Source: Pyropia yezoensis | Lineage: Eukaryota > Rhodophyta > Bangiophyceae > Bangiales > Bangiaceae | Assembly: GCA_009829735.1 (NCBI GenBank) | Contig: CM020619.1 | Coordinates: 19,969,816 to 20,033,815 of the forward strand | Reading direction: 5' to 3' | DNA: 64,000 bases | Part shown: one piece after another, positions 17,773-51,373 of the stretch | Layout of the letters: every line of letters starts with the position of its first letter | Position numbering within the stretch: the first letter of the stretch is position 1 | The notes under the pieces: generated by a model | Databases searched by the model: none | What the model was told of the DNA's origin: nothing | What the model saw: the letters and a program-made list of their open reading frames with translations, nothing else | Position numbers and translations under genes: made by a program

Positions 17773-20306
17773 TCAGAAGGGGTTACCCCCGCCAGCAGAA
17801 GGGGGCCAGTCACGCGTCGTCCCGTACACTTCCGTACTCCAACGGTCGGCTATCTCACGCCGGTTGAGCGCCTGAGCTACCTCAGCGCTAAGACGCACCA
17901 GAGTGCTGTCACCAGCCTCCACAGCATCCAGAGCCATCTGTAGGCGGTTGAGCACCCAACCGAGGCAACGCGCGGTACCGACCAGCGCAGCAGCTGGGGG
18001 GATGTCCCCCCAGCTGACCGGAGGCGCCTCCGTGAACTCACAAGAGAGAAGGGCGTTAACGCCCTCATACCACAAGCGAGGACCCCCGTCGGGCATGACG
18101 GGAGCCGGCGATGCCACCGGAGGGACCGGAGTCACAGCCGGAGGAGTGGACACCGCCACCGCCGGAGACGGCAGTAGCTGGTAAGGAGCACGGTATGACC
18201 GTGAAGGAGGACCAGACTCCTGGGCAGAACGCCCACCGGGAACCCAGTGGAACTCCCCACGACGACGATACGTCTCGCGGACCCCACCAGTGGCGTCCCA
18301 CTCACGGCGACGGCGACCCGTCCCCATAGGAGTCGGGTTACCGAACCAGGGGGTTCCCACCTGGAGAGGGTCGGGCAGGACCACGGGAATACCCAGGCCG
18401 GGTACCGACTCGGTGGATGCCCACCCCTGGTATCCATCCTCACCCGAGATAACTCGGCGGATACGTAGCGAGTGACGAGGCAACGGGAGCGTTCCCGGTT
18501 GCGCGTCGCGGAACGGCGGCAAGGTCGCCACCGCCGACCAGTTCACGGCATCGTGAACGGCCACGAGCGCAGTCAGCTCACGGGTTGACCCCGTCCCAGT
18601 TGCAATGGCGGTAACGCCTAGCTCCCCAAGGCGCCGACGGACACCCGTCGGAAGATGGAAGAGCCGGCCCTGTCGGCGGGCCGACAACAGGAAGGAAGAA
18701 ACCTGCCCGAGGGTAACCTCGAGGGTGAAGACACCCTGCAGCACATGCGTGGGCCGAGCGGCCAGCACACTGCTGAAGTAGCGCAGGCAAGGACCGGTGT
18801 CAAACCGGAAAGCTGGGGCGGGCTCCCACCCCTCTTGCCACCCAGGCGGGCGCAACAGAGTGTATACGGGCGCACGACCGTTACCGGTCTGCAACGCGCA
18901 CGTTACATCCGTGCGGAATGGGTCCGCCATGACACCATGGTTTCGACGCCAGCTGGACGCCGACTTCAGGCCACCCATGGTCGGAAAGGGCGGCGTCAGC
19001 CACAGATACGGGGGATCCCCCGGGTAGTAGTCCAAACCGGGATACCGGTTGGTACCAGGCACGAGCTGCCCGAAGGCCACAGGGGTCTGGGTAGCAGCCA
19101 CCCCGCGGGCACCCGCAGGGAAATCCACCTCCCGCGGCAGCGCCGGGGCAACCAAGTCGCACACCCCAAAGGCGGGGTGGAGGGCAGCCTCAGGCCGCCC
19201 GACCCGGGCACGCCAGAGTTGAGCATGCCGGTCGTCCGGCTGGCTGAGTATCCAATGATGCTCGGCGCGAAACCGCGTCAGGCTGGGCAACCAGCCGAGA
19301 CAACTCCCGCTCCCAACAGGGGTCCAACGGGACCGAACGGGAGGTACCTCCGCGGCGACCCGACGGGTGGAAGTCCACCCGCATCCGACCACCCGAATCC
19401 ATGGGCTCTTGCACGGTCAAGCTGCGCACCCGGGCCACCAGCTCGGAGACCGACAACGGGGGATGTCCCACAGTAGAGGCGTCGCCGCCACTCGCGAAGG
19501 CGGTACCGCCAACCGCAGAGGCGACGCCGCCACCGACCAAGCCAACGCGGCCACCCAACGGGGCAACCCGGGCCGGCCCAGGAAGAAGCGCCGGCGCCGG
19601 CGGAAGCCCAACGGGTAGGTGCACCGGCGCCGGAGCATGGGGACGAGGAGGAAGAAGTAGGGCGGGCACCCGCCCGGAGTAGCTCCCGGTGTCAACCGCT
19701 ATGGGGGAAGGAGCGTCTTGACCGCTCGACGCCCGCGGCACCGCGAATAGGGTACCGGCGCCGGCCCCACCCGTCGACGTCGCCCCCGCCTCGGAATGGG
19801 GAGGCACTTGGACAGCCTCGGGAGCCTGAGCACAAGCCGTGCGGGCACCCGCACCGTCTTGACCGGCCACCCCGGGTGTCGCGCCACCACCACCACCCAC
19901 GTCAACATCGGGGTCGCGTTGAGGATGCACCGTCCGGACTCCCGGACCACCTTGCCCAGCCGGAGTCGGCCGGGGATCGCCACTTCCGCCGTAGGGCGGG
20001 CCATCTTGGGGTAGCTGCGGCGAGCCGGCACCGGCACCAGGCTCCATCTGGGCAGCCGGCAGAGAGGGGGTAGAAGCCGCCACGAGCGGTTGACCGCCGG
20101 GTTGACCCCCGACCGACGGCACCGTCGTGCCGCTGCACACGGACGACAGTCCTCCGGCCGCCAGACGGACGGACACCGCAGGCTCGTCGTCTTCAGACGA
20201 GCTCACCCCGTAACGCGCGGCGTCAGGACCGACAGGCGCGTCGTCCTCCATCTCCACCCCGATCAGGAGGTCTTTCTCCTCCCCAAGCACCTGGGGATAG
20301 GAAATG
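17773..20306 (-). pseudogene. Antisense accessory ORF region of copy B
   Basis: The counterpart of the copy A antisense gene, convergent to pol. Conserved blocks include LRYFSSVLAARP, RRQGRLFHLPTG and LVAVHDAVNW. The product differs from that of copy A at many residues but keeps the framework residues, most clearly across the FG...RQG...HL region. About one to two breaks. The N-terminal acidic SSSEDDE-type stretch and the Pro/Gly-rich linker are present. Function unknown. Confidence 0.78.
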
Positions 20307-20890
20307 ATAACGGGTGGCAGAGTCCCCCGCGCCCACAAGCCGTCGACGGCTACGACCCGGTACGGTGGGACATACGGGACGAGCCAGGGAAGCGCGGGCA
20401 CCCGCGCTTATGACCACAAACAGCCACGAGAAGCGCCGCAGGCACGCGGGTCGACCCGCGCCAGCCGAGCTACGAGGGCGCTCCACCCACCCACCTGGAC
20501 CGGAGCCACGCCCCCCCCACACGGGGTAGGCAAGGGGGGTCGCCCCCAACCGCCCCCACTCAACGCGGGCAGCCCCCGCCTCCCACTCAATCGTCCACAC
20601 GAGAGGGGCTCCCCCTACCACCGGACACCTGGTGGCAGATCCGCTTCCACCACCCCTCGGAAAGGGGGGTCGTGAACAGAAACCCGCATCGGGAATTTAA
20701 CTGTCCGGAAAACGGATCGTGTGTGTACCACACAAAGGGGGGCACCCCCCTCAAACAACCTCGAAAAGGGGTGTCTGTCGCGACAGGGCGCAAAGCCCCA
20801 CCCGACTTGTAAACGGTCACGCGACCCACTTACATTCGGTAACCCGAATGCAACTCGACCCGAAGACAGGCCGAATCTAAGGGGGGGATA
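20307..20890 (-). promoter_or_regulatory. Antisense leader and polypurine tract, copy B
   Basis: Conserved with copy A over its length, including the palindrome TGTCGCGACA, the CATTCGG...CCGAATG pair, and the polypurine tract AAGGGGGGG (20879-20887) just before the LTR. Confidence 0.55.
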
Positions 20891-30517: not shown

Positions 30518-32887
30518 TCAGTGGGTAGACCCGCTGCCCGATGGAGGCCACTCACGCGTAGACGCGTACACCTCCATGCTCCACCGGTCGGCAATCTCGC
30601 GACGGTCAATCCCCCGAGTTATCTTGGTGCATAGGTGGACGAGGGTACTGCGGCCAGCCTCCACGGCCTCCAGAGCTGTCTGGAGGCGGTCCAACACGCC
30701 ACCGAAGCAGCGCGCGGACCCAATAAGCGCAGCACCTGGGGGGTTATCCCCCCAGCTAACAGAGAGACCCTCCCGCATCTCGCGGGCGATGAGGGCGTCA
30801 ACGCCCTCATACCATAGACGGGGACCCCCGTCACGCATCACAGGGGCGGAAGGTGACATTGGCGCAGCCCGAGGAGCCACGGGAGCCGACACGACCACCA
30901 CCGGAGCCGGTGGCGCCTGATACGAGGCCCGGTAGCACCCCACTGAACGTGCCACACCGTAAACCCGGCGGGGCTCCGCCCGACGACGGGACACCTCACG
31001 CTACCCACCCGCAGAGTCCCACTCTCAGGGACGACGGCCAACCGCCGACGGTATCTGGTTACCGAACCACGGGGCGACGATCTGAAGAGGGTCATGGATA
31101 ACCATGAGAATACCCAGGTCAGGAACAGCCTCGGTGGACGCCCACCAACGGCAGTTAGGCTCACCCGGCTGAGTACGCCGGATGCGCAATGAGTGACGAG
31201 GCAAGGGGGCAGCCCCAGCCTGCGGATCCAGGTACGGGGGAAGGGTCAACACCCCAGCCCAGTTCACGGCATCGTGAACGGCCAGCAGGGCCTCGAACTC
31301 CCGGGCCAACCCGGGCTTGGCAGCTATCATGTCCACACCCAGCTGCCCGATATGCCGACGGACACCCGTCGGAAGATGAAACAGGCGCCCCTGCCGGCGG
31401 ACGGACAGCAAGAAGGAGGAAGCCTGCCCGAAGGTAACCTCAAGGGTGAAGGTCCCTTGCAACGGGTGGACCGGCCGGGAGGCCAACACGCTCCCGAAGT
31501 ATCGAAGACAGGAGCCGGTGTCAAACCGGACAGCAGGGGCGGGTTTCCACCTCTCCTGCCAAAGAGGCGGGCGCACGGGAGTGTACACCGGCGCACGACC
31601 GTTACCGGTCTGCAACGCACACGTTTTATCGGTGCGGAACGCACCCGCCATGACACCAAGGTTGCGTCGCCAGCTCGACGCCGACTTCAACCCCGCCATG
31701 GGCGGGTACGGAGCCGTCAACGTCAGATACGGGGATACTTCCGGGAAGTACTCAAACCCAGGATACCGGCCGGTGTCGCCCACCGTCGACGCAAACGCGA
31801 CGGGCTCCGCCGCGGACGCAACCCCCCGAGCACTAGCCGGGTAGTCAACCTCTTGCGGCAACGCGGGGGCAACCAAGTCGCAGACCCCGAAGGCGAAGTC
31901 GAGAAAGACGTCACCCCGCCCCACCCGGGTGCGCCAGAGCTGCGCATGCCAGTCGTCCGGCTGACGCAGGATCCAGTGATGTTCCACCCGGACCGCATTC
32001 GGCTGGTTGACCAGCCGCACCAACTCCCGCTCCCAACTCGGGTCCACCCTGACGCGCCGGAAGGATGCTCCACGGTGACGCGGCTGGTGGAAGTCCACCC
32101 GCATCCGCCCAGCGGAGTCCATGGACTCCTGCACCGTTAGGCCTCGAACCCGAGCCACCAAGTCGGACACCGACACGGCAGGTTGACCCGCCGCCAAGGC
32201 GACGCCGCCACCTAGCGGGGCAACCCGGGCGGGCCCAGGAAGAATCGAAGGCGCCCGGGGAAGCCCCACCGGCAGATTGGCAGGTGCCGTAGGCGCACGG
32301 GGCCGAGGAGGAAAAAGAAACGCGGGCGCCCGCCCGGAGCAACTTCCGGAGTCCACCGCCATCGGGGAAGACACATATTGACCACCAGTCGCCCGCGGCA
32401 CCGCGGGCAGAGCATCGCCGCCACCCGGGCCCGACGTGGGCACCACGGGGAGGGAGGGGGTAGACCCGTTGCCTGCCACCACGGACACACCACCACACGA
32501 GCGGGCACCCGCACCGTCTTGACTCGCCGCCTTGGCCGGGGCGCCACCACGACCGCCCGACACACAGGCTGCGCCGTCTTGTGGTAGAGCCGCGCCGGCA
32601 CCGGCGACAGGGGCCATCCGGGTCGCCGGAGGAGTAGGGGTAGGAGCAGCCGCTGCACGCAGTTGACCGCCACCCGACGGAGCCGTCGTGCCGCTGCACA
32701 CGGACGACAACCCGCCCGGAGCGCCTTCCGGGGCCACACGGACGGTTACCCGGTCGTCGTCTTCGTCCGACGAGCTCGATAAGAAGCACTGGGCAGCGGT
32801 GGCGGAGACGGGAACGTCGTCTTGCATCACCTCCTCCCCCTCACCCAAGGGGTCGTCCTCGCCCCCGGGTACCTGGGGGTCCGACAT
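30518..32887 (-). pseudogene. Antisense accessory ORF region of copy C
   Basis: Likely start MSDPQVPGGEDDPL at 32887; the longest open stretch of the three copies lies here, more than 600 codons. The acidic run SSSSDEDDDR, the Ala/Pro/Gly-rich linker and the conserved part (blocks WERELVRLVNQPNAVRVEHHW, LRYFGSVLASRP, RRQGRLFHLPTG, LLAVHDAVNW) follow in the same order as in copy A. The open frame continues upstream of the Met to about 33319 (MWYTHDPVSGSL), so the true start is uncertain. About one break. That such a frame stays open in a copy whose gag is badly decayed fits past selection on it, but GC-rich DNA favours open frames. Confidence 0.8.
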
Positions 32888-36264: not shown

Positions 36265-36269
36265 GCAAG
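36265..36269. repeat. Target-site duplication GCAAG, left copy (element E)
   Basis: GCAAG lies directly before the outer LTR of element E and again at 51374-51378 directly after the partial LTR at the other end. Confidence 0.85.
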
Positions 36270-36737
36270 TGTGACAAAAACGACTCGCACACGCTGCTCC
36301 CAAGTTGGGGCGGTGCGCAACGGCTGCCTCCCGTGTCGGGGGATCCGGAAGAAGTGCATGTCGCACACACGCTGTCCCTGTTGTGAGGCAATCCCCCCAC
36401 TAACAAACAAGAAGGTGGTGTGTGGGCCAACAGTGTCTTGGTCGGGACCGGGAAGCGAGGCCAAGCCCCGCTGTCCCTCCCCATATCCCCCCAGTGTCCC
36501 TTCAGAATCTCGCCACTCAGAATCTCCCACCCCAGCACCTGCCCACAGGGCCACACGAAAATTCAAGACGATAAAATGCAGAACACCCTTGAATCCACGT
36601 TGGATTTACTACTAAGCTAACTATCCCTTACTTAGGGAATATGGACCCAAACGCATGGGGAGAAAAGGGTCAGGCTAGCTGCCTGCCGCCACTTGCATGG
36701 CACGTGTTGCCCCCTACCTGGGGTCATTGCTGCCACA
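36270..36737 (-). repeat. LTR of element E, left full copy (468 bp)
   Basis: + strand ends TGTGACA...TGCCACA. It is followed on the right by CTCCCCTCTCCTC (36738-36750), which on the - strand is the purine tract preceding a 3' LTR. A full-length match lies at 50363-50830. Confidence 0.88.
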
Positions 36738-36945
36738 CTCCCCTCTCCTCAGTTCCGACCGACCCGGTCGGCCCTGCGAGGGGGCATAAATACGCACATC
36801 GCGGCGTTGGGGGCGCGACTTGCTGTCCCCCCGGTACGTCATGCGGACGTGAAGGCGATAACGTTGACCACCCCCCTCCTCAAGCTTGCCCACTTGGCAT
36901 CTTGCTCTTATCAGTGCTCACCTTACCATCACCAACACACCCTTT
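36738..36945 (-). promoter_or_regulatory. Polypurine tract and start of internal region of element E
   Basis: The purine tract (36738-36750, read on -) is followed by sequence matching 50831-51040. This is the region from which the antisense ORF of element E would be transcribed. Element D is inserted at its right end. Confidence 0.7.
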
Positions 36946-37645
36946 TGTAGCGTTATGGCCCTTCTGGCCCACGGTCCACACACACAGAAAAGCACAGCGG
37001 GGTCAGGAGGGAACGGGTAAAGGTCCCAGCGTCATTCACTTGCCCGCCCCTTCAAAGGCAAGGGTAAAAGGACAAAAGCTCGAGGGAGCAAGGACCCAAA
37101 GAACCGTTGATTTTACAAGTTGGTTCCGGGGAGACCCCGGAGCACCCCTCAAGAGCCTCCCCCTTGGCCCCTCCAGGGGCCTAGAGCGGGGCCCCCAGAG
37201 GGCGCCCCTGGCGGGTCGAGCGCCAGCAAGGCGTCTGACCTCCACCAGGTCCTCCAACGCATCCCCTACAACGGGGTTACGCTGGGGCGCCGAGGGTCAC
37301 CAATCAACCTCCGGTCGCCAACCACAAGCGAAAAGCAAGCGAAAATCCCCCCACCCACAGATGCCAATCCCCGAAAAAAACCCAGTGGGAAAAAGGGGAA
37401 AGACACGAAAACATGCAGTGAAAACAAATACAAAACAAATGGCCACAATGGCCAGTAAGGCCACCTCCACCGGCCAAATCCGCCTTCCTGGGTGGGACCA
37501 ATCAGGATCCCGGTTGTGTCGCCACGGTCCCGAGTCACTGACAGAGGGGTCCCCGGAAAGAGAAGGGCTCCACGTAGGATAGCCTGCCGGGTCTCAAGTC
37601 ACCTCCCCAAGGGCCCGCTTGTCCCCAAAGCCTCAGAACGCTACA
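36946..37645 (-). repeat. 3' LTR of element D (700 bp)
   Basis: + strand ends TGTAGCG...CGCTACA, close to the TGTAGCA/TGCTACA tips of family 1 although the rest is unrelated. On its right TGGCCCCCTCAC forms the purine tract when read on the - strand. Confidence 0.92.
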
Positions 37646-38309
37646 TGGCCCCCTCACAAAGGCCGAGCGTCCCGCCGGCCAACAAGGTACAGGATTCGAG
37701 CGGGCCGAGGGGAAGAACCGATAAGTCCGGGGAGTGAGGACCGCACACAACGACTCGCTGGGCCAGTGTCTCCGACAGCGGTCGCCTTCTAGGAGAGGCG
37801 TGGTCCACGGGTGTCGGAGAGAGTCCGCCGAGAGGGGTCACAACGGGGGCCACACGCGCTGGAGAGAGGGAGGGGCAGGGCGCGGGAGAGAGAGAGGGGG
37901 GGAATGCTCGGCAGGGCACCCCTACGGCATGCTTGACCCCATCCCTCTCTGCCTCAGAGCGTCAGGGGAGTGGTCGAGCGCTATCGTACGGGAGGGGGGT
38001 GGGTTCAAGCCTGCCGTGGCCATGCCGCCGGGTCCGCCTCCTGTCTGGGAGAGAGACCCGGACATCAGCGGGCCCCCTCGGGTCCCTGCGATCGTATCCA
38101 CCCTGGCCACCCGACTCACTCATACCCAGCGCGGGCCCTCGGACCCACGCACGCCATCGCGTCGGCCGCCACCACCACCATACTCATCGGTCCCTCACCT
38201 GGCCTGCTACCTTGCGGATCCCCTGGCCCCTTCACCTCCTCTCTTACCTTCGGTCCCCCGGTTTTCAAGGGGCCCTCACGTTCCCGACGCGGCGGCGTCG
38301 CGGACCACG
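37646..38309 (+). promoter_or_regulatory. Polypurine tract and leader of the antisense gene, element D
   Basis: The purine tract (read on -) adjoins the LTR. The following GC-rich sequence is open in the antisense-gene frame from about 37734, with ATGs at 37930 and 38310; it is Pro/Ser-rich, and I cannot say whether it is translated. Confidence 0.45.
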
Positions 38310-39939
38310 ATGGACGTGTACAGCGGAGCGGTTCCTGATGGGCCCCATGGTAAAGATGGGCCTAACAACCACGGTGAAATAGAGGAGCCGGGGGCGGGCA
38401 AGCTGTTCAACGACATCATCGGCAGGTTTCTGGAGCAGTTTGGGCCCAAAGGCCGCGTTGCGTGGGACCGCGAGAGGGCCAGGGGTTGGGTCACATCCAC
38501 AAGGGCTCAAGAAACCCTGCGCTTCATCGACGGGCCCTGTACTGGCTACTCCTTCTTCCGCCAGATGGTCACCATTCCCGAGGCCCGTGTTCCACTGCGG
38601 ACCGACCGGTCCGAGTCGATCATTGTGGTCCGTCATGTGGACGAGGTGGGCTACGTGGTCCGCTTCAAGGAGGAGCGGGCCAAGGCGCTTGCCGGGTCCA
38701 CGTCGTTGCCGGCGGCCTCATCGGGCCAGTATGTCATCAAGGTCCCTTCGGTTCTGGGTCACGACGGGCTCAAGCCGGACCGTCAGTACCTGGTGACCAG
38801 CCGGCACCACCGGGACAAGCATCGGATCTTCGTGGACTGGCATCAACAAGAGTGCCCAAGTTGTCCCGCCATGGACCGTGGGGCCCACTGTGTCGGGGTC
38901 CCTCAGTGGTGGGTTGGTGTCGGGGTCCCTTTTGGAGCCATCACGCAGCTGCCACCGGTCCTTTGTTACTTCGGGGCCCTACTGCGGGCCAACGATTTTT
39001 CCACCTGTGCCCTGTTTCGGTCCGAGTGGGCCGTGCACGCGGGGGTCCTTCTGCTCCGTACGGCCCGGCTATCCTGCCAGTTGTGGCTCTTCTTCCGGAC
39101 CGTTCGAGCCTAAATCCGTCGTATAGGGATCAAGGTGATCTGTCGCACCCAGTCGGGTATGGACTCCGTGGCCGAGCGGGACCTTGAGCTTCTTCTGGAC
39201 CTGCTTGACAAGGTGGCCCCGGTTCCCGGTTTAGTGGCCCGTCTTCACAAGGTGAGCTCGAAGGACCGTATGCGAATTTCCTGGGTCCATGTGCGGTTCG
39301 AGCCGACGGACGGGATCTGAGGGGTCCGTGTCGATGAGGGCCAGGCCCCGTTGGACCCACCTTATTCCTCCGACGTGTTGGAGAGTCAGGAAATCGCTGG
39401 GGACCGAGGGGCCGAGGGTGCCGCTTCTCAAGGCGCTGCTCTTCCCGCTCCGGTCGTGGCCCGCGTCAGCCGGTTCCACGGGTCATCGCCGAGGGCCCTC
39501 CTCCGGTCCGGCCATCCTCGTCGCCAACCTCATGGGCCACCCAGACGTCCCTGACTCCGAGCTGCCCCAGTTGGAAGGTGGTACCTCACCGCAAGTCGTC
39601 GGGGCCCTTCGCGGCGTGGTTGAAGGCCCTATGGACAACCTGGAGGGGGCCTATGTTGGACCTCTCCTCGCGGGTTGTCTCCATACGATGGTGAACCTTG
39701 GCACTCGTGCAGCCGAGTGGGCCCAGGGCCAAGTGGGCTCGGAGATCCCTGACTACAAGCGGCTCCTGGATCTCGTGGACCGGCATGGGATCCGCCAGGA
39801 CCTTGGGAAGGAGTTGGTCTTTGCGACCCGGAAGGCTCAGCGGGAATGGGGGACCACATCGGGGTCGCGGGTCCGAGGGCGGTCCGATGTGGACAACGAA
39901 GAGGAGGACCTTCGGGCCGAGAGTCGGGCCCGATACTGA
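38310..39939 (+). pseudogene. Antisense accessory ORF region of element D
   Basis: Lies opposite to gag-pol, between the end of pol and the 3' LTR, like the antisense gene of family 1. It starts MDVYSGAVPDGPHG. Recognisable blocks in order: QYLVTSRHH (near 38785), WWVGVGVPFG, LCYFGALLRAND (near 38960), VLLLRTARL, ERDLELLLDLLDKV, and a C-terminal LLDLVDRHGIR...RKAQREW (near 39757-39849). It ends with an acidic DNEEEDLRAESRARY tail. These blocks match the family 1 product in order and spacing (YFGSVLA, REFEALLAVHDAVNW, VVDRRDIAD...TREW). About one to two breaks. Function unknown. Confidence 0.7.
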
Positions 39940-40598
39940 GTCAACTTGGGGATGTTGTTAGATTGAGGGTTGGCCTTTCTCTTTTAGTAGGGCCCATGTT
40001 GTCCACCATAAACCTGTGTTTGCTCGTCACCCGGGGGATGGGAGCAGTTCAAGTCCAGCGGAGACAGAGCCCCAACAGAGCGAAGACACTACAGGGGGCC
40101 AAAAAGAAGGGTAGGTATATGGAAGAGGGAACATAAGCCCCATATCAGAAGTTAACCCCCCTCTCTTCCCTTTTTGGGTTCCTCACCATTATGGGTCCTT
40201 AGTTTTCCCTGGTATCCGGTACAGTGCTAGTATCCAAATTAACTGACACTTGTGGCCCGCCCGACACTGCACGAGTCCAAGGGATAAACCCCTGCTTAGT
40301 CAGGCATAAGACCCATAGTCTGTGGCAGTGTGGGCCCATACTCTCCACCGTTGTCTCACGGACCATGGGCCTAGTCAAGGCCAGAAGGTGGGTCACAAGG
40401 GACTGGGCAAGAGCATCGAGGGCCAGGGTACTCCAGCGGTCCACCACGAGGGCACATATCCGCCCCTGGTTCCAGACACCAGGGCCAAACAGAGTAGATG
40501 GCTTTCAATGGTTCCAGTAAAGCTAGGGCCCGCTCCTCCAGCATGGGGGGCTCGGTCCGAACTCGGAAACAATACTATGTCACCTTGCGCCGGTCGAA
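39940..40598. other. Convergent intergenic region, element D
   Basis: About 660 bp between the antisense ORF stop and the end of pol. No array like the 24-bp palindromes of family 1 was seen. No coding potential recognised. Confidence 0.5.
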
Positions 40599-43500
40599 CT
40601 AGTACCAGGGTTCCCAAGTGTCCTCGCTGGGGGCGTACACCCACCAACGTACCTTGAGCCAGAGGTCCCCATCATTATCACGGTCCCAAGCGACAAAGCG
40701 TTCCCAAACCAACTGCTTCCCAGTGTCCTCATGGTCCAGTGGGACAACGGGTTCCTTCGGGCCATGAAGCATTGTTGAGGAGTCCATCTCTCCCGCTGGG
40801 GTCGGGGCTCGGGCCACATGGTCACTGCTGACTCTGTCAGCGAATCCCTTGGCCATCACCGTGAAGGTGTTGCCATCGCGTCTTAGGATCCGGTAGGGCC
40901 CTTCAACAATCTGATCCAACTTCTTGCGCTCCTTGTCGGGAGTGTCCACATGGACACGGTCGCCGGACTTTAGGGTCTCGTTGACCGTATTGACCCGACG
41001 ATCATAGCTCTTCCTGTATCTCTTCTGGGCCAGCTCAAGGTTGTTACGGACCTGCAAGGCCAGGTCACGGAGATGGGCCCGTCGAGCCACACGCATTGTC
41101 TAAGCGGACCCAGGGAGCTTCTTGGGATACAAAGAGCTCGGCAGCTGGTCCAAAGCATATGACCGGACCCTCTATGGGACCACGAACTCCAACGGGGGGC
41201 CACGCCTGTGCTCTGCTGAGGCCTCGAGTTGTAGGCCACCGTCAACACGAGTACAAGCCCGTCCCATCGGTCCTGATGGTCCTCGATGTAGGTCCTCAAC
41301 TGGGCCACGATGGTCCGGTTGTAACGCTGAACCTGGCCCTGGGTCTGTGGGTAATATGTGGTCGATGTAAGATGCTTGATACCAATCATACTACACACGG
41401 CCCGGAAGTGAGTTGAGGTAAGCTGGGGCCCATTGTCGGTCAGCAAAGTGTCAGGGGGATCATAGGAAGCTACCCAAGAGATCAAAACGGCCGACGCTAC
41501 GGACTCAGCGTCTTCATGGTCCACAGGGACAACACGGGTCAGTTTTGTAAAACGGTCCACCATGGCCACCAGATACTTGTGCCATTAATGGTCTCCGTTA
41601 AGGGGCCCAGCAGGTCAAGACACACATCGGTAAACGGTTCAGTGGCCGGGAAGAGCCGGAGTGGGTTGGTCCGTCGGCGCCCTTGAACACTGCGTTTTGC
41701 ACAGGCGGAGCATCGGGACACAAAAGCGTACACGTCAGTGATCATAGAGTCCCAGTGAAGGGACCGACGGAGCGACGTGTACATCTCATTGACTCCAGGG
41801 TGTCCCGCGTGGCCCAGCTTATGTTCGAGCATAAGGATCTCCATCTGTAGGCTCTTCGGGACCAGTATCTGCACCGCACGGTCCAAGGGGGCCAGGCAAA
41901 CAAGCAGGCCATCGGGCGTCTCCCCAAACCGAGGGTTGGTATTCTGGTCCAATTTGGTCCCTTATCTCCTTGCATCGGGGGTCCTTGGCTTGGGCCTAAA
42001 AAATCCTCCGAACCGTCATGGGCGGGTACCGCTTGTCGCTCTTGAGGCTCGGTTGGACCCAGCCCCTTGCGAAGTTGGCTAGGGTCAGTAGGGCCGCAGT
42101 CTCTTCCGGTATGGGACCGCGGTCCGCGCCCAACGTGGCCAGTCGCGACATAACGTCCGCCGCGTGGTGGTGCTGACCGGGCCTTGACTCCACCGTATAA
42201 TTGAACTCAGCAAGCCTTAAGCGCCAGCGGGCCAGACGTCCATGAGCCCCATCTATATGTAGCATCCACTTGAGGGCCGTGTGGTCCGTGCGGACAATAA
42301 AGCGGGTCACTTGAAGATAGGGCCTCAGTAAAAACACGGCCCACACGACGGCCAGGCATTCCCGCTCCGTCGTGCTGTACTTCCTCTCTGCCGCCGTCAA
42401 GACCCGACTCGAGAATCCAACGGGCCGGTAGGACCCGTCCTCTTGCTCCTGAAGCAAAACGCACCCAATTTGGGCTGCTCTAGCATCGGTATCAACGATG
42501 TCCTGGCCCTTGCGTTTCGGTAGGGCCAGAAAGGGAGTGTGAGTCAGGCGGTACTTGAGGTCCTCAAACGCGTCCATCTGTTCCAGGGTAAAAGATGGCA
42601 AGGGGTCAGGGACCTTAGTACTCGTCAGGGCCAAAAGGGGACGAGCGACCTTGGCGTTGTCCCTTACGAACCGACAGTACACGCTGCACATACCAAGGAA
42701 ACTTCGTAGGTCCTTCTTGGTCCTTGGGGCCTTGGCTTGACGAAGCCCGACCAGGTTCTTCTTATTGACCCGAAGCTGGCCCTTGCCAACGATGTGGCCC
42801 AAGTACTGGACTCATCCTGGAACAGGTGACACTTCATCGCTTTCAGGGACACAACAGCGTTAGATAGCAACTCAAAAACCTCTTCAAGGTGGGCCAGATG
42901 CTCCTCATGGGACCTAGTGAAAACAATCACGTCATCGAAGTAAAGCAAGCACGTCTTCCACTTGACTCCAGAAAGGGTCATATCAATGGCCCGTTGGAAC
43001 GTAGCGGGCGCCATAATGAGACCAAACTGGAGCCGTACGTACTTGTAGGTCCCTTTGTGACCGGTGCATGTCGTCTTGTCCTGGTCCTCAAGGGCCACAG
43101 GGATTTGCCAATGTCCGGCGTTGGCACTAAACATAGAGAAAACGGTCGCCTTCTCTAGGAAGTCAATACAATCGTCCATCCGGGGGAGGGGGTAAGTGAC
43201 CTTGACCGTGAGGTCGTTGAGCCGACGGTAATCAACACAGAATCGGGGGGTCCCATCAGACTTTGGGACCAAAACGACAGGAAAGGACCATTCGGCTTGC
43301 GACGGCTCGATAACTTGGAGCTTCAGCTGCTTCTTGACTTGCTCCCTAATGAGGTCCCGATGGTGGAGCCCAGTACGATACGGTTGGGACCTTATGGGCC
43401 GTGCCCCCTCCTTCAGCGTGATGCAATGAGGGGTTATATCCAAACGGCCCAGCTGGCCATCCCACAGTCCCTTGTATCGGTGCAGCAGTTCTCGTACCGC

Positions 43501-43650
43501 GCCGTGTAGGGCCGCAGGGATCAGTTCATAGGCCACCCGCGGCAAAAGCTCCGGACCAACATTGTCGACCTTAAGCCTCTCAATCGGGGGGACAGGGTCA
43601 ACGGTCTGAACCATCTTGGCCCACGATTCCGTCTGTTTCGCCACCTGCAA
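40599..43650 (-). pseudogene. pol: pol region of element D: RT, RNase H, integrase, chromodomain
   Basis: From right to left: RT (FCVDYRRLND; YFDDVIVF near 42930), RNase H (VDTDARAAQIGC, STTEREC), integrase zinc finger (HAGHPGV...CSACAKR), catalytic core (LDLLGP, TDNGPQL, QGQVQRYNR), and a chromodomain ending YAPSEDTWEPWY next to the stop at 40599. It differs from family 1 pol through most positions outside motifs, so it is a separate family. Several breaks. Confidence 0.92.
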
Positions 43651-43671
43651 CGAGGCTCCTTCAGCGGGCCC

Positions 43672-45585
43672 CTACGTGGCGAACGGGTTGGCCCCCTCAC
43701 AGGGCTCTGGCAACTCCTCGAGCGGGATCTCTTGAACTGGACCATCGTATGAGACCGCGAGGCCCACTGCCAAGTTCTTGGGCAGGTTCACGGGCATCTT
43801 GGACAGATTCGTCAGGTACAGTCGGAAATCCTTTCGAGTCTTGACATGGGCCAAAGCATTGTGCCGCCCCCCCTTACTCTTGTCCCAGGGGCTTTGGGTC
43901 CTCAGGGCCATCGTTCTCGGGATCATCACGGTCCGCCTCGTCGTCCGAGAGGTTGATCCCCTCGCACAGCGCCTGGACCATAGCGATCCGAGTCTTACGA
44001 TGGAACTCATGGTCCGCCATAGAATGGACCTCGGTAGACTGACTTTGGCCCCGTGTGGCTCCAAGGAAATTATCTCGGGCCTTCTGGACCATCTTGCGTT
44101 GCGCCTCCGTCAGGGTGGGACATTGGTGGGCCATGTGGCCCGTCTCCCAACAGAGGTAGCACCGATGGGAGTCGACTGTCCAGAGTTCGGCCCCTGACAT
44201 ACGGAACTGTGGGGGCCTTGAACCCATACGTCCTGCCAGGGTCAATCCCGTCCATTTCCATGCCCACGGGCCGCTGCAGAACCGTCGAAGGGCCCGTCGA
44301 GTCCACATTCAGCAGCGGTTCAGAATCAGTGGGCTTCCGGGGCTTGAAATCAACGGGCCGACGTGTGGCCCCAGATGGCGAGCCCCGCGAAGAAGACGCT
44401 TGGCCCTGGGCCATCTTTATCACGTCGGTGGCCGCCTTGTGCTTCCCAGAAGCAAAGGTACCGAGCTGCTGATAGGTCCGTTTCGGACCGTTAAAGACGT
44501 ACGCATCGGTCCGCAGGAAATCCGTGAGCCCTTGGATCAGTTGCTGCTTCATGGTCTCTTCCGAGTGGATGTTTCCAACCGACTTGGTGAGCCCACGGAG
44601 CCGCAGAGCAAAGGCCTCAATAGTCTCTTCCGGTTCCTTTGTGGCCCTGCTAAACTTTTCCTGGGCCACAGCGAGCGCATGGGGTTCCGCATATGTCTCC
44701 AGGAACCAATTGAGGCCTCTGGGTAACTAGTGATCAACGCGCCCCCCGAAGCGCTTGTGGAATCAGGTAGGGCCCGTAACTACCGCAGTTCCGCGTCGCC
44801 CGAGAGGAACTGAGGGATCACATGAAGCGCCATACCCTCAGAGACCCCATTGTCGTTACAGGACTTCACCAGCTTACGGAGCCAGGTAAACACTTTAAGC
44901 CCATCCTTACCAGAGAAGTTCGGATAACCGGCAAAAGAGTGTCTCATGTTACGGGCCACACGGCCCATCTTCTTCGCTTCACGGGTCCTATACGTGTTCT
45001 TCTTGTTCAGGAGTCGATAGGTGCGATAGTCTAGGACCTTGAAGAAGCGATCATCTGAACAGCTAAGGATCTCGGGGCCAGGTCGCTCGCAGTCCTGCGC
45101 GCCGGTGGACTCCGCACTAGAGGAAGAGGACCCAGAGGTCCCGGAAGAGGATGAGGAGCCCGATGAACGGCGACATCGGGACCGACGGCGACGACAACTA
45201 GTACTATTGGACCGTCGGGAACCAGGGGATCGTTCGGGACCTACGGACCCACCCTGACCAGCGGGGCTCTGGCTCAGGGCCTGCGATACTGTGGCCAAGA
45301 TCTCGTCACGGAAAGTCTCAAGGACCGAATGAAGCTCTGTCGGCCCGGAATCATCTGCGGAACCGGGGATACGGGTTCCACCTCGACCCCAGTCCCTTTG
45401 TCTCGACGCGAATTAGAACGAATCACAGCCGGCGGCGTCTGACGCCGGCGCGGAATACCAGAGAGCCCGCCTCCGCCGTGAATCTCAGGACCACTAGGGG
45501 CCCCACGACCACGACCAGCGGGTGTCACCATCGATGCGTCCGAGGGCGCACCGCGGCCCCGCCCACCAGGGGGAAGGTCCGCCAT
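43672..45585 (-). pseudogene. gag: gag region of element D
   Basis: Likely start MADLPPGGRGRGAP at 45585. An Arg/Gly- and Ser-rich N-terminal part is followed by a capsid-like region (GYPNFSGKDGLKVFTWLRKL; EETIEAFALRLRGL) and a CCHC zinc knuckle CYLCWETGHMAHQC near 44120-44161. A segment with NLPKNLAVGLAVSYD leads into pol. A few breaks. Confidence 0.85.
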
Positions 45586-45708
45586 GTTGGCCCTGCGGCA
45601 ATCGACCTGAACCAAAGGGTACCTCGAACAGGGTCAAGGGACCAAAAGAACCACAGCGCCACCAAGGGTAGGAGAAGGCCTTCCCGATACGGGAGAAGAA
45701 TATGGCCC

Positions 45709-45726
45709 TCCCCTGCTGCTCCACCA
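45709..45726 (-). promoter_or_regulatory. tRNA primer-binding site, element D
   Basis: On the - strand TGGTGGAGCAGCAGGGGA, separated from the LTR by AAAA/TTTT; identical to copy C over 18 nt. Confidence 0.88.
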
Positions 45727-45730
45727 AAAA

Positions 45731-46428
45731 TGTAGCGTTATGGCCCTTCTGGCCCAGGGTCCACACACACAAAAAAGCACAACGGGGTCAGGAGGCAACG
45801 GGTAAAGTTCCCAGCGTGATCCACTTGCCCGCCCCTTGAGAGGCAAGGGTAAAAAGTCAAAATCTCGAGGGAGCAAGGACCCAAAGAACCGTTGATTTTA
45901 CAAGTTGGTTCCGGGGAGACCCCGGAGCCCCTCAAGAGCCTCCCCCTTGGCCCCTCCAGGGGCCTAGAGCGGGGCCCCCAGAGGGCGCCCCTGGCGGGTC
46001 GAGCGCCAGCAAGGCGTCTGACCTCCACCAGGTCCTCCAACGCATCCCCTACAACGGGGTTACGCTGGGGCGCCGAGGGTCACCAATCAACCTCCGGTCG
46101 CCAACCACAAGCGAAAAGCAAGCGAAAATCCCCCCACCCACAGATGCCAATCCCCGAAAAAAACCCAGTGGGAAAAAGGGGAAAGACACGAAAACATGCA
46201 GTGAAAACAAATACAAAACAAATGGCCACAATGGCCAGTAAGGCCACCTCCACCGGCCAAATCCGCCTTCCTGGGTGGGACCAATCAGGATCCCGGTTGT
46301 GTCGCCACGGTCCCGAGTCACTGACAGAGGAGGCCCCGGAAAGAGAAGGGCTCCACGTAGGATAGCCTGCCGGGTCTCAAATCACCTCCCCAAGGGCCAG
46401 CCTGTCCTAAAAGGCTCAGAACGCCACA
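45731..46428 (-). repeat. 5' LTR of element D (698 bp)
   Basis: Pairs with 36946-37645. The central 440 bp or so are almost identical between the two LTRs, while most differences are in the outer 125 and 100 bp. Confidence 0.92.
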
Positions 46429-46559
46429 CCCTTCACCTTACCCTGGGCCGCCCCACGCTGGGGCAGCCACCCGTCTGCCCGCGATCCGAGCCCCCCTCAA
46501 CTCGAGGCGGGTCTCGTGCAGCTGCAGCCGAGTCGTCTCATCCTAACTTGGGGAGAGCC

Positions 46560-48362
46560 ATGGTGACCCCGGGGGTGGAGACAGCCTCCTTGGACGAACG
46601 GATGGAGGATACTTCTTACGATGTAGTGGCCGCCGGGACTTTCGTCGGGGGCTGCGCGGTCGCTCCGAGGGATGGGATGCCCGCGTCACCCGGCTTTGGG
46701 TTGGTCGCAGGATCTCCCCGGGAGGTAGGCCCCGTTGTTCCTCGGGATGCCTTGGGGAGGTGGTTCTACCTCGCTTGGCCCCTGTATGAGGAGGGGTTGA
46801 CGGTTATCCGCTGTGCCGACTTGGCAGAACGATGAGTCGCGTCTGGGACCGCCTACGGGAGAATTTCCCCCGTGGAGTCAAGTTTCCTGCCGGCTACGAG
46901 ACAGACCATCTTGCCTTCCTGGATGAGGTTGAGGTCGAAGACGTGCAGCGGGCCAAGATCCTGTTGGCCCGCGGGGGTACTATCGCCGGCACCGGCAACG
47001 TGCCGACCTTCACTTGGGACGCGGTGGCAACTCGCCCCCCGTACCTACGTGACTTCGATCCGCACAGTCATCACTTTGACGTGCAAATGGAGAAGGACTG
47101 CTGGCGAGGTCCCTACTTGGTGACCTCGTCCCAACTCGAGTGTCCACAGCAGTCACCTGCTAGCAAGGAGCAATACTACCCCAAGAAGCCCGAGTAGTGG
47201 CCTCAATTCGAGGTCCCCTATGGGTTCCCGGCGCTACTGCCACGGTTGCTCGACCACTTCGGCTCCGTCATGTTGACGGCTAGCCCAGACTACCTGGTGT
47301 TTGCCATGTTGGCAACCCACGGGGTCCTTGAGGTCATTTCGACCTGGGTGTCTTGTGTACAGCGGCAGGGGATGTTCTGGCATCTATCCTCCCGGCTTAT
47401 CCAATGTTTGGAGCAGCTCACCCCTCAGCTAGTTGCTGAGGGGTGCCCGTCGGGACAGCTCACTCTAGTCGAGGAGATGCTGCGTCTCCACAAGCTCATC
47501 GAGTGGGAGAGCATCGAGCACAAGTTGCGCCGATCTTCCCGCGGGCCCATGGACGATGGTACACTTCGCCAGTTCGTCTGGGTCGCCCGCGAACTTCACG
47601 ACGGCCGCGTGGTACTCAAGGAGGGGTAGGGCATCGGCGCCTACCCGTATGCCCCGGGGGGGGAACGCCACACTGCGCCTCCCCCGGACAAGGCAATCGT
47701 GGTGGCCGTGGCCTCCCACGGTGACTACATGACTCAACCCACTGCGGGGGCCCCGAGTAGGGGTCGCAGCTACTCTCGGGCTCCGCCTATTCGGCGAGCC
47801 CTTATCTTCCGAGATGATGAGCACCACGTTGGTGCGCACTATTTCTTCATCGGCCGCGTCGGCAGCAACACTCCAAGTATCGGAGACTCCTCAACTTTAG
47901 GAGCGCGTTCGTACTGTTGTGGCGACCGCGAGTTGCAAGTCGGTAGCGGAGTTCATGACGACCGAGTTGGCTCATACCCGGTCGATTGTGCCCCGGTCGG
48001 CCCCACTTGGGCGCGGCAAGCGTCGAGCAAGCCGGGCATACTCGCCTCCTCGCCGTCGTCGCCGTAACTCGAGGCGGTCTTCCTCCGTGTCGGACGAAGA
48101 GCTGTCTTATTCCGTCTCGGAGTCCTCTACCCCGTCGGAGACGGAGTCTGTCCGGCGTCTGCGTCGCCAAATTGCGCGCAAGGCCAAGCAGAAGAATAGC
48201 CACGGTCGTCGCCACTTGAGCGACCGTGAGGGGCGCGACGGTTCCGACTCGGAGCCGCCGCCCCCGCCGACGGGTGCGGAACGTTATTGGCGTGGGTCTC
48301 GCCGCTCACCTCCGCGTGAGGGCGAGGGCCGTGGTTTTGGGGAGTCTAGCATGCGTGCCTAG
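46560..48362 (+). pseudogene. Antisense accessory ORF region of element E
   Basis: Lies opposite to pol of E, between pol and the 3' LTR. It starts at ATG 46560 (MVTPGVETASLDER). Blocks in order: GPYLVTSSQLE (near 47109), FEVPYGFPALL, LLDHFGSVML (near 47250), VQRQGMFWHLSSR (near 47358), MLRLHKLIEW, then VRTVVATASCKSVAEFMTTE (near 47910) and a basic, Ser/Arg-rich and then acidic tail (RGKRRASRAYSPPRRRRRN; SDEELSYS). The FG, RQG...HL and VV...TE blocks line up with those of family 1. A few breaks. The tail suggests a nuclear or RNA-binding protein, which is inference only. Confidence 0.7.
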
Positions 48363-48509: not shown

Positions 48510-50342
48510 TCAGGCGCAGTACGCCCGGACCTTCTCAGCAGGAAGATCCTCCACGTATTCCCACGTATAATCTCTTGCCTTATAGCCGAACCAAGCCACC
48601 CTCAAGATGAGGCGGTAAGTGTCCTCATCCCACCCGTAGTCGATGAACTTGTCGAACACGTTCTCCTGCGGGCCCTGTTCGGTCGCAGGTAGCGAAGGCA
48701 GGCGCCACGCTTTCAGCGCGCGCCCAAACCGGGTCGCCTGCCGGAGGTGGTGCAACTTTTACCACGTCCTCTCCGTTTACTGTGCGGACCCCATCTTCAC
48801 TATCGATGGTAAACCGTCGTCCATCCGTACTCAGGACTTGGTATGGCCCCTTCGTTTGGAACACCAACTTACCCCCTGTTTGGGTATGTGAGTGTGCCAG
48901 CACCCAGCCACCCTGCTCGGGGACGTGCTTGGCATTGTGCACCTTCTTGTCAAAAGTACGTTTGAAGCGCTTTTGCGCTTTGTCCATCTCAGCCCTGACT
49001 TTCGAGATGCGCTTCTCGAGCCTAGCAGCGAACTCCACCTTACTGTCAGTGGGAGTCGGGGTACTGCCATCGGCCTCCCTAGTTTGAATCGGGCGCCGTA
49101 CGGCAATAGACCGCACGCGACGTTGGGTCACAAAAGCGAGGTCTACTTCCCCGGTAGATGAGTGAACCTGGGAGTTGTAGGCGGTCGTCAGAATAGAAAT
49201 GTATTGATCCCACGTTTTCACGTGCTCACTCAGGTAGTGGCGCAGCTGTCGAACAATAGTTTTGTTGAAGCGCTCCACCTGCCCATTAGTTCTTTGGTGG
49301 TAGGGGGTGGCATACTTTGTCTGAACCCCCAACATATCCAGCACTCCCTGACACAGTACGGACGCAAACTGCGGTCCGTTCTCCGACAGTGTACTGTCCG
49401 GGATGCCATAAGCGGCAACCGAGTGATCTAGGCAGGCTGACACGACCGAAATGGCCGTGATCTCTGCCAGAGAAATCGCTCGCGTAAGCTTCGTGAAGCG
49501 ATCGCAGATGACCAGGAGGTACTGGTTGCCATCCTCTGTCACTGGCAGGGGCCCGAGGATTTCCATTGCCAACGCGGCAAAGGGCTCCTTGGCCGGGAAC
49601 AGTAACATAGCCGTAGTAGGCCGCCGTTCCAGCAGACGGTTCTGCGCACAGCTTGTGCAGTCAGCCACCCAACTGTAGAAGTCCACCACCATGGACGGCC
49701 AGTAGTACCTGGTCCTCAGGGTCTGGTATAGTTTACTAGACCCCAGGTGTCTACCTGTGGGAGCGTTATGCTTCCTCTCAAGGATACTGTCCTTGAGGGA
49801 TGCGGGGACGACAAGTTGTTCAGTCACTTGAATTACCCCCCTCCTCAAGGGGAGGCCATCGTCTCCGACGAAGAATCTCGTTTCCGCCACCGTATCCAGC
49901 GTATCCCTCTGCAACTTGCAGAAGGAGTCTTCGGCTTGTGCCTTCACCACGTCGTCCATGGACAGGGGCAGGTACTTCTTGTTCCCCGGCACCTCGGGGT
50001 TCAACGCCTGACCCGAGCGCGTGACTACCCCCACGATGGGGATGCCATCATCGACTGGATTAGTGCCAGCCCCTCGGTTGGTACCCGAGAGAGACCGTCG
50101 GCTAGGGCATTTTGCCTGCCGGGACGGTACTCAATATCAAAGTTGAAGGGTGCCAGTCGCACCCTCCACCTGTTGAGGCGGGTGTTGGTGCAATCCGTCT
50201 TACAGATGAACTGCAACGCGCGGTGGTCACAGCGAATGAGGAACTTCTCACCCTGCAGGTAGTGACGAAGTGACGTCACCGCCCACACCACTGCGAGTCC
50301 TTCCAACTCGGTGACTCCATAGTTCTTCTCAGCCGTGTTCAG
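48510..50342 (-). pseudogene. pol: 3' part of pol of element E: RNase H, integrase, chromodomain
   Basis: From right to left: RNase H (ELEGLAVVWAVTSLRHYL, IRCDHRALQF, YRPGRQNALADGLSR); integrase zinc finger (ERKHNAPTGRH...CTSCAQNR), core (MEILGPLPV, SENGPQF, NGQVERFNK); and a chromodomain (FDKFIDYGW...YTWEYVEDLP) ending at 48510. Most of the integrase part is one open stretch of about 470 codons. The visible pol starts at RNase H, next to the PBS. Confidence 0.9.
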
Positions 50343-50360
50343 TCCCCTGCTGCTCCGCCA
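50343..50360 (-). promoter_or_regulatory. tRNA primer-binding site, element E
   Basis: On the - strand TGGCGGAGCAGCAGGGGA, one base different from the site in C and D. Confidence 0.82.
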
Positions 50361-50362
50361 AA

Positions 50363-50830
50363 AGTGGCACATACAACTCGCACACGCGGCGCCCAAGTTG
50401 GGGCGGTGCGCAACGGCTGCCTCCCGTGTCGGGGGATCCGGAAGAAGTGCATGTCGCACACACGCTGTCCCTGTTGTGAGGCAATCCCCCCACTAACAAA
50501 CAAGAAGATGGTGTGTGGGCCAACAGTGTCTTGGTCGGGACCGGGAAGCGAGGCCAAGCCCCGCTGTCCCTCCCCATATCCCCCCAGTGTCCCTTCAGAA
50601 TCTCGCCACTCAGAATCTCCCACCCCAGCACCTGCCCACAGGGCCACACGAAAATTCAAGACGATAAAATGCAGAACACCCTTGAATCCACGTTGGATTT
50701 ACTACTAAGCTAACTATCCCTTACTTAGGGAATATGGACCCAAACGCATGGGGAGAAAAGGGTCAGGCTAGCTGCCTGCCGCCCCTTGCATGGCACGTGT
50801 TGCCCCCTACCTGGGGTCATTACTGCCACA
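50363..50830 (-). repeat. LTR of element E, middle full copy (468 bp)
   Basis: Almost identical to 36270-36737; next to the PBS on its left and to a purine-tract copy (50831-50843, read on -) on its right, so it acts as both a 5' LTR and a 3' LTR. Confidence 0.88.
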
Positions 50831-51228
50831 CTCCCCTCTCCTCAGTTCCGACCGACCCGGTCGGCCCTGCGAGGGGGCATAAAAACGCACATCGCGGCGT
50901 TGGGGGCGCGACTTGCTGTCCCCCCGGTACGTCACGCGGACGTGAAGGCGATAACGTTGACCACCCCCCTCCTCAAGCTTGCCCACTTGACATCTTGCTC
51001 TTATCAGTGCTCACCTTACCACCACCAACACACCCCTCTACCTGACCCTGGGCCGCCCAACGCTGGGGAAGCCACCCGTCTACCCGCGATCCGAGCCCCC
51101 CTCAACTCGAGGCGGGTCTCGTGCAGCTGCAGCCAAGTCGTCTCTCCCTAACTTGGGGAGAGCCATGGTGACCCCGGGGGTGGAGAGTGACTCCTTGGAC
51201 GAACGGATGGAGGATACGTCTTACGATG
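50831..51228 (-). repeat. Second copy of the 3' internal region of element E
   Basis: Matches 36738-36945 plus 46429-46625, the purine tract, leader and first codons of the antisense ORF (ATGGTGACCCCGGGGG near 51164). It shows the target sequence of element D in the empty state. Confidence 0.85.
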
Positions 51229-51373
51229 TATCCACATTGGATTTACTACTAAGCTTCCTATCCCTAACTTAGGGAATATGGACCCAAATGCATGGGGAGG
51301 AACGGGTCAGGCTAGCTGCCTGCCGCTTCTTGTATGGCACGTGTTGCCCCAACCTGGGGTCAATACTGCCACA
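51229..51373 (-). repeat. Partial LTR of element E at the right end
   Basis: Matches the last 140 bp or so of the + strand LTR (for example 36596-36737), ends TGCCACA, and is followed by GCAAG (51374-51378), the partner of the left duplication. Confidence 0.85.

Follow-up and report, generated by a model that had tools for sequence, protein, structure and literature searches.

We analysed a 64-kb window of the genome of the red alga Pyropia yezoensis (contig CM020619.1, positions 19,969,816 to 20,033,815) together with the whole genome (107.5 Mb in 11 contigs), focusing on open reading frames (ORFs) that run antisense to gag-pol in long terminal repeat (LTR) retrotransposons. Three relevant element types are found in the window: family 1 (F1; copies A, B and C), with pol on the plus strand; element D, with gag-pol on the minus strand; and element E, with pol on the minus strand. 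Their antisense ORFs, LTRs and pol regions are given below in window coordinates; E-values are those of the profile of relatives described further on.

38310-39110, plus strand: D antisense ORF, first open piece, starting at ATG 38310 and containing the greater part of the conserved core (the frame 37725-39110 scores 4.2e-107)
39256-39936, plus strand: D antisense ORF, second open piece, carrying the C-terminal half and not joined to the first (1.2e-52)
46560-46832, plus strand: E antisense ORF, N-terminal piece, start within the LTR (4.8e-20 for 46242-46832)
46790-47194, plus strand: E antisense ORF, second open piece (3.1e-40)
47198-47626, plus strand: third open piece of the E antisense ORF, with the conserved core (6.5e-54)
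47630-48359, plus strand: C-terminal end of the E antisense ORF in two pieces, 47630-48064 and 47901-48359, with the Arg/Ser-rich tail (6e-7; 1.6e-4, biased composition)
6079-8526, minus strand: antisense ORF of F1 copy A, pieces 8526-8011 and 8010-6079 (8.2e-12 for 8010-6082)
17776-20407, minus strand: antisense ORF of F1 copy B, open pieces 20407-19193 and 19416-17776 (3.2e-9 for 19416-17776)
30518-32887, minus strand: antisense ORF of F1 copy C, ATG 32887, open pieces 33337-31025 and 31000-30518 (2.1e-7 for 33337-31028)
36946-37645, minus strand: element D 3' LTR (window self-BLAST, 96.7% to 45731-46428)
45731-46428, minus strand: element D 5' LTR (window self-BLAST, 96.7% to 36946-37645)
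40602-45412, minus strand: D gag-pol pieces, comprising gag-like, reverse transcriptase (RT), RNase H, integrase and chromodomain-like tail (Pfam for RT, RNase H and rve)
36267-36942, minus strand: element E 3' LTR, first part (self-BLAST, 97.9% to 50362-51035)
46425-46625, minus strand: element E 3' LTR, second part, with the likely antisense ATG 46560 (93.6% to 51029-51230)
50362-51230, minus strand: element E 5' LTR, with a second copy of the first antisense codons, ATG 51165 (self-BLAST, ATG positions)
48513-50130, minus strand: E integrase region (Pfam H2C2, rve) and chromodomain-like tail (tail by eye)

A sequence-only reading of this DNA had placed the antisense ORFs of D and E opposite gag-pol, in the interval from the pol end to the 3' LTR, and the LTR, Pfam and ORF coordinates agree with that placement. 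In D, Pfam domains for RT (42667-43671), RNase H (41999-42811) and integrase (40973-41584) lie on the minus strand; its gag-like piece is so labelled from its position and has no Pfam match. The E integrase lies on the same strand at 48628-50130. Pfam identified RVT_1, RT_RNaseH, Integrase_H2C2 and rve in the pol of F1, RVT_1, RT_RNaseH and rve in that of D, and integrase domains only in the scanned stretch of E. The window elements that bear the gene are classed as Ty3/Gypsy by the pol order RT, RNase H, integrase. The label of chromovirus, which the sequence-only reading had given them, derives from chromodomain-like tails that all fall below the Pfam cut-off (PF00385, E-value 0.029 in F1 and 0.28 in D; no match in E). 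By eye, the window copy of E lacks gag, protease and RT (48513-50492), its 5' LTR running into an RNase H-like frame.

The 3' LTR of E is in two parts (36267-36942 and 46425-46625) because D (36946-46428) is inserted within it. The E LTR matches overlap briefly, which points to a target-site duplication of at most about 7 bases around the inserted D.

The window copies of the D and E antisense ORFs are both interrupted, a point on which the earlier reading was silent. The likely ATG of E (46560) sits inside the 3' LTR and has a counterpart (ATG 51165) inside the other LTR; about 22 codons are therefore LTR-encoded. A relative from a protein database, P0006, starts at a methionine that matches this likely ATG. 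The ATG of D and of F1 copy A lies about 590-670 bases inward of the LTR edge. The E protein is closed by an Arg/Ser-rich basic tail.

Relatives of these ORFs elsewhere in the genome fall into further families, named X, Y and Z here. X (locus L069) and Y (L070 and L071) were reached via the weakest matches of D, and a search with the Y core led to Z (L082 and L084) and to a Y-like locus, L083. A profile built from relatives, with F1 and the window's own copies left out, was searched against the 384 window ORFs of at least 80 amino acids. Its top ranks were taken by pieces of D and E together with a single ORF per F1 copy (4e-107 to 6e-7), with the three F1 copies at 8.2e-12, 3.2e-9 and 2.1e-7 and the best unrelated ORF at 0.83. 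Two further E-derived frames scored 1.6e-4 and 0.0019; the N-terminal part of F1 copy B and the C-terminal piece of copy C were missing from the best-scoring rows.

In profile-to-profile comparison with hhalign, F1 aligned to the combined relatives with a score of 91.7 (P 1.5e-10). An earlier combined profile scored 72.5 against F1, and column shuffles reached at most 26.4 (198 usable shuffles). Reversing F1 brought the score down to 17.0 with the combined profile and to 17.1 with a profile of D and X, and none of the five alternative reading frames of the F1 DNA rose above background, the highest scoring 19.2. Shallow profiles linked D to E (P 2.5e-9), F1 to E (P 7.8e-6) and F1 to D (P 6.8e-5), and a profile of D and X matched one of E and Y at P 7.6e-19. 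F1 alone had no similarity to a single X or Y profile (P 0.5 and 0.18). E, X and Y are also linked without profiles, because with the Y core as a single query the X-type places score about 1e-34 to 1e-27 and those of E about 1e-15; with D as the query, places of the X and Y types came out between about 1e-8 and 1e-4.

Judged by these comparisons, the antisense ORFs of D, E and F1 are distant homologues, and it is almost certain that these elements have a conserved antisense gene in common. The sequence-only reading, which had made this claim for three families, proposed to settle it by a profile search, by the consistency of the antisense position and by shuffled controls. For the core, all three came out in its favour: the similarity is well beyond chance and the shuffles are at background. 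Searched against the window ORFs, an F1 profile recovered the E core (3e-4) but not the D core.

The shared core comprises about 210-250 residues. It begins with a 'YYPG/PPYL'-like stretch, continues with a W-W-x-x-V-E-V-P-Y-G-like motif, which is altered in F1, and a helical stretch, and ends in a 'LPYSSDVL/YPYAPGV'-like sequence; the helices were read off a weak structure model of the D type. Core identities are 23.5% for D-E, 26.6% for E-Y, 20.6-21.8% for F1 and 33.3% for X-Y. Among D, E, Y and F1 they thus span 20.6-26.6%, and pol, with the tail excluded, is 36-54% identical between families, which fits the earlier proposal that the antisense gene is old. The motif sets on which that proposal had drawn, typified in F1 by LRYFGSVLA, RRQGRLFHL and LLAVHDAVNW, stand in register in our alignment. 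The YLVTS said to be shared by D and E does not: in E it faces IFVDW of D. At the C terminus, where a match among all three families had been claimed, a weak one survives for F1 and D and none for E. The C-terminal part of F1 scored 26.2 against D and Y together (P 9e-4; 100 shuffles at or below 19.2) and 16.8 against D alone (P 0.047).

The statement that the protein has no recognised domain stands for the Pfam library. Scanning nine of the proteins at an E-value of 1 returned just three sub-threshold, unrelated families, and the database relatives P0002-P0007 gave nothing at an E-value of 10. Transposase_28 (PF04195) was considered as a candidate and rejected by sequence: a first pass of its profile over the genome left no candidate at an E-value of 10, and hmmscan was likewise without a match.

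The gene is repeated many times across the genome. Among the best 150 of 2416 candidates scored for the E core, 110 lie in frames of at least 700 amino acids, 97 of which are exactly 724 long; the antisense ORF is thus retained in most copies among the E matches listed. For D, at least 145 matches were listed, in identity tiers of about 80%, 50%, 40% and 28%. The ratio of nonsynonymous to synonymous substitution rates (dN/dS; Nei-Gojobori counts) was 0.18-0.45 in 12 of 14 pairs drawn from D, E and F1, pairs that are not mutually independent. Third codon positions were the most variable in all pairs but one, which involves the decayed window copy of D. In each of the three families tested (D, E and F1), purifying selection thus acts on the protein sequence.

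The arrangement seen in the window recurs elsewhere in the genome. We oriented 63 loci (L009-L071, window D and E included) on the antisense gene: the best pol match lay opposite it in 49, on the same strand in 2, and was lacking in 12. In both same-strand loci the pol or gag pieces belong to another element, and the opposite-strand pol match of L046 also resembles a different element. At a Y locus, L072, RNase H, integrase and tail lie opposite the antisense gene. The gene therefore stands tail to tail with pol in four Gypsy families, D, E, F1 and Y; for D, E and F1, whose LTRs were read, it was seen to lie between pol and the 3' LTR, and for Y its placement is known from the position of pol only. 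With X and Z as additional relatives, the finding is somewhat wider than the three families first described.

X was read at three loci:

C2:12143500-12149500: X locus L069/L073, with a GATA zinc-finger frame downstream
C3:14714200-14718700: X locus L074, with a GATA zinc-finger frame downstream
C1:43414500-43418700: X locus L075, the third one read

Two of them (L069/L073 and L074) share a common unit in which the GATA zinc-finger frame, oriented like the X gene, follows some 3 kb downstream; the Pfam GATA domain matched at 8.1e-10 in one X locus. No pol match was found in the stretches read at the three loci, nor in the 3.2-kb stretch read at the Z locus L082. About 23 places among the matches listed in the Y-core search had X-like scores, and X looks like a repeat unit of its own rather than a single host gene.

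Beyond this genome, searches of a protein database, each scoring about 8000 candidates, returned five relatives for D, one for E and one for F1. Two of those found with D, P0004 and P0005, come from a second species, Pyropia vietnamensis, and are 36% and 42% identical to the first query. In viral contigs and prokaryote genome contigs, for which the D-type alignment was the sole query, no relative turned up.

Antisense ORFs in the same place are described in plant Gypsy elements: Grande (gene23), RIRE2 and Retand carry one between pol and the 3' LTR, in Retand with a Transposase_28 (PF04195) domain, according to passages of PMC7264820 and PMC11963269. The same passages report gene23 to be nuclear and give the functions of the plant antisense ORFs as unknown. 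The red-algal gene resembles this plant kind, aORF-3R, in place and orientation and in being carried by the majority of copies within a family or lineage. It differs in sequence from the plant PF04195 proteins as far as PF04195 and Pfam were tested, and a very distant kinship may exist. The Retand lineage is described as non-chromovirus (PMC11963269, in the part concerned), whereas D and F1 have the chromodomain-like tails mentioned above. The red-algal proteins are thus best read as a putative new family, defined by sequence comparison, in a known arrangement, with an antisense ORF placed after pol and before the 3' LTR.

The bZIP protein HBZ belongs to a retrovirus, human T-cell leukaemia virus type 1 (HTLV-1), and its spliced form starts in the LTR, as the E antisense ORF does. 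HBZ is, like the gene studied here, a protein gene antisense to gag-pol, and it is reported to be nuclear in the section of PMC11963269 that treats it; in the red-algal proteins, by contrast, no Pfam domain was found. The CERV protein of the Caenorhabditis elegans element Cer1 is another nuclear accessory protein of an LTR retrotransposon and is described as necessary for export of the genomic RNA, but it is encoded by a spliced Cer1 mRNA (both according to PMC10309623), and the likeness is drawn from its description. Also by description only, Boty of Botrytis cinerea is comparable as a non-plant element cited with an antisense extra ORF (PMC7264820, where it is mentioned). According to the portions of PMC7264820 and PMC11963269 that bear on the matter, antisense genes of LTR elements have been described in plants, in retroviruses and in a single fungal element that is cited there. 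Among the papers listed in literature searches, judged by title and the start of the abstract, none dealt with an antisense gene in red-algal LTR elements.

The presence of the gene in several divergent families and in a second species, together with purifying selection, suggests that its product does something the element needs. The explanation that best covers the whole, to which we assign a probability of roughly 0.6, is that four Gypsy families share one antisense protein gene, which likely encodes an accessory protein predicted to act in the nucleus on the element's own nucleic acid. We favour this role because of the precedent of gene23 and Retand, the basic tail of E, the start of the E frame within the LTR and selection at the level of the protein. 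A promoter in or beside the 3' LTR, pointing inwards, would drive an antisense transcript; the protein, by way of example with the Arg/Ser-rich tail in E, would enter the nucleus and, acting in trans, regulate the element's expression, RNA traffic or integration. In addition, the antisense RNA would meet the 3' end of the genomic RNA, which it could damp. A regulatory role in the nucleus, taken by itself, is somewhat less likely than not. Of similar probability is a history in which an ancestor of the bangialean red-algal Gypsy elements had one antisense gene, inherited ever since, so that families whose pol is 36-54% alike would depend on one nuclear protein; the start would have moved into the LTR in E, and X would have left gag-pol to become a repeat beside the GATA frame. 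Because so many E frames are intact and nearly identical, they would be a natural system in which to study a whole class of unexplained genes.

Several observations weigh against this explanation or against parts of it. The gene is known here from DNA sequence, and the Arg/Ser-rich tail is seen in E only, the other families having at most short basic stretches. The AlphaFold2 models are too poor for a fold (mean predicted local distance difference test score 43.7 for the D type and 29.1 for the F1 type), and a Foldseek search of the D-type model against the PDB gave no hit at an E-value of 0.001 and 20 at 10 or below, the best at 2.7. Two of the dN/dS pairs exceed 0.7, namely D of the window against L045 (0.98, involving a decayed copy) and L010 against L012 (0.71), and in two pairs dS is above 1, near saturation. 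One reversed control was not at background: the reversed F1 profile scored 34.0 against E and Y, exceeding the best shuffle (25.0), with the real score higher at 58.1. X and Z are without pol in the stretches read, so that there the gene may lie outside a Gypsy element, and the P. vietnamensis relatives were compared as proteins.

The main rival is copy-number control, in which the antisense protein or RNA inhibits its own element and so keeps the host from being overloaded. In the four families D, E, F1 and Y, the gene runs antisense to the 3' portion of the genomic RNA, and regulation by antisense RNA is discussed for the plant antisense ORFs in passages of PMC7264820. Selection, however, acts on the protein, beyond RNA complementarity, as the variability of third codon positions in 13 of 14 pairs indicates; the E frame, moreover, is open in 110 of at least 150 matches listed, which a helper explains at least as well. 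We regard a brake as rather unlikely. Repeated, independent capture of a host gene by different elements is less probable still: the X copies, without detectable pol in the stretches read and with the GATA frame nearby at two of three loci, speak for it, but X resembles its own repeat rather than a single host gene, position and orientation are alike in D, E, F1 and Y, and the antisense identities loosely parallel those of pol, F1 being the most distant in most pol comparisons too (a comparison of identities rather than of a tree).

An envelope-like or particle protein serving spread between cells is highly improbable, and we rejected it on the antisense orientation. An additional ORF that follows pol and precedes the 3' LTR is often env-like if it lies in sense orientation (PMC7264820, in the passage on such ORFs); this gene is antisense. 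The best 19-residue hydropathy across ten proteins ranged from 1.23 to 1.91 and exceeded 1.5 only in X (1.91, a stretch within the core, and the one value counted in favour of this reading) and in F1 copy C (1.73, upstream of the likely ATG); apart from the latter, D, E, Y and F1 lie at 1.2-1.5. Shadow ORFs of GC-rich sequence, with a similarity that is merely compositional, are barely credible and were rejected: the window does hold many overlapping long frames and the reversed F1 profile did rise against E and Y, but column shuffles and the other five frames stay at background, every real score is well above its reversed counterpart, most pairs have a dN/dS far below 1, and more than 700 codons are open in many copies.

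Some of the relatives show additional features. P0005 (MMPV_002403) of P. vietnamensis combines the D-type domain with an N-terminal stretch that by eye resembles a Copia-type gag and has no Pfam match at an E-value of 10; the combination may reflect either a fused gene model or an element that is chimeric. In the Z frames of L082 and L084, a run of short 'PPLRAG/PPLWAG' peptides lies upstream of the likely start.

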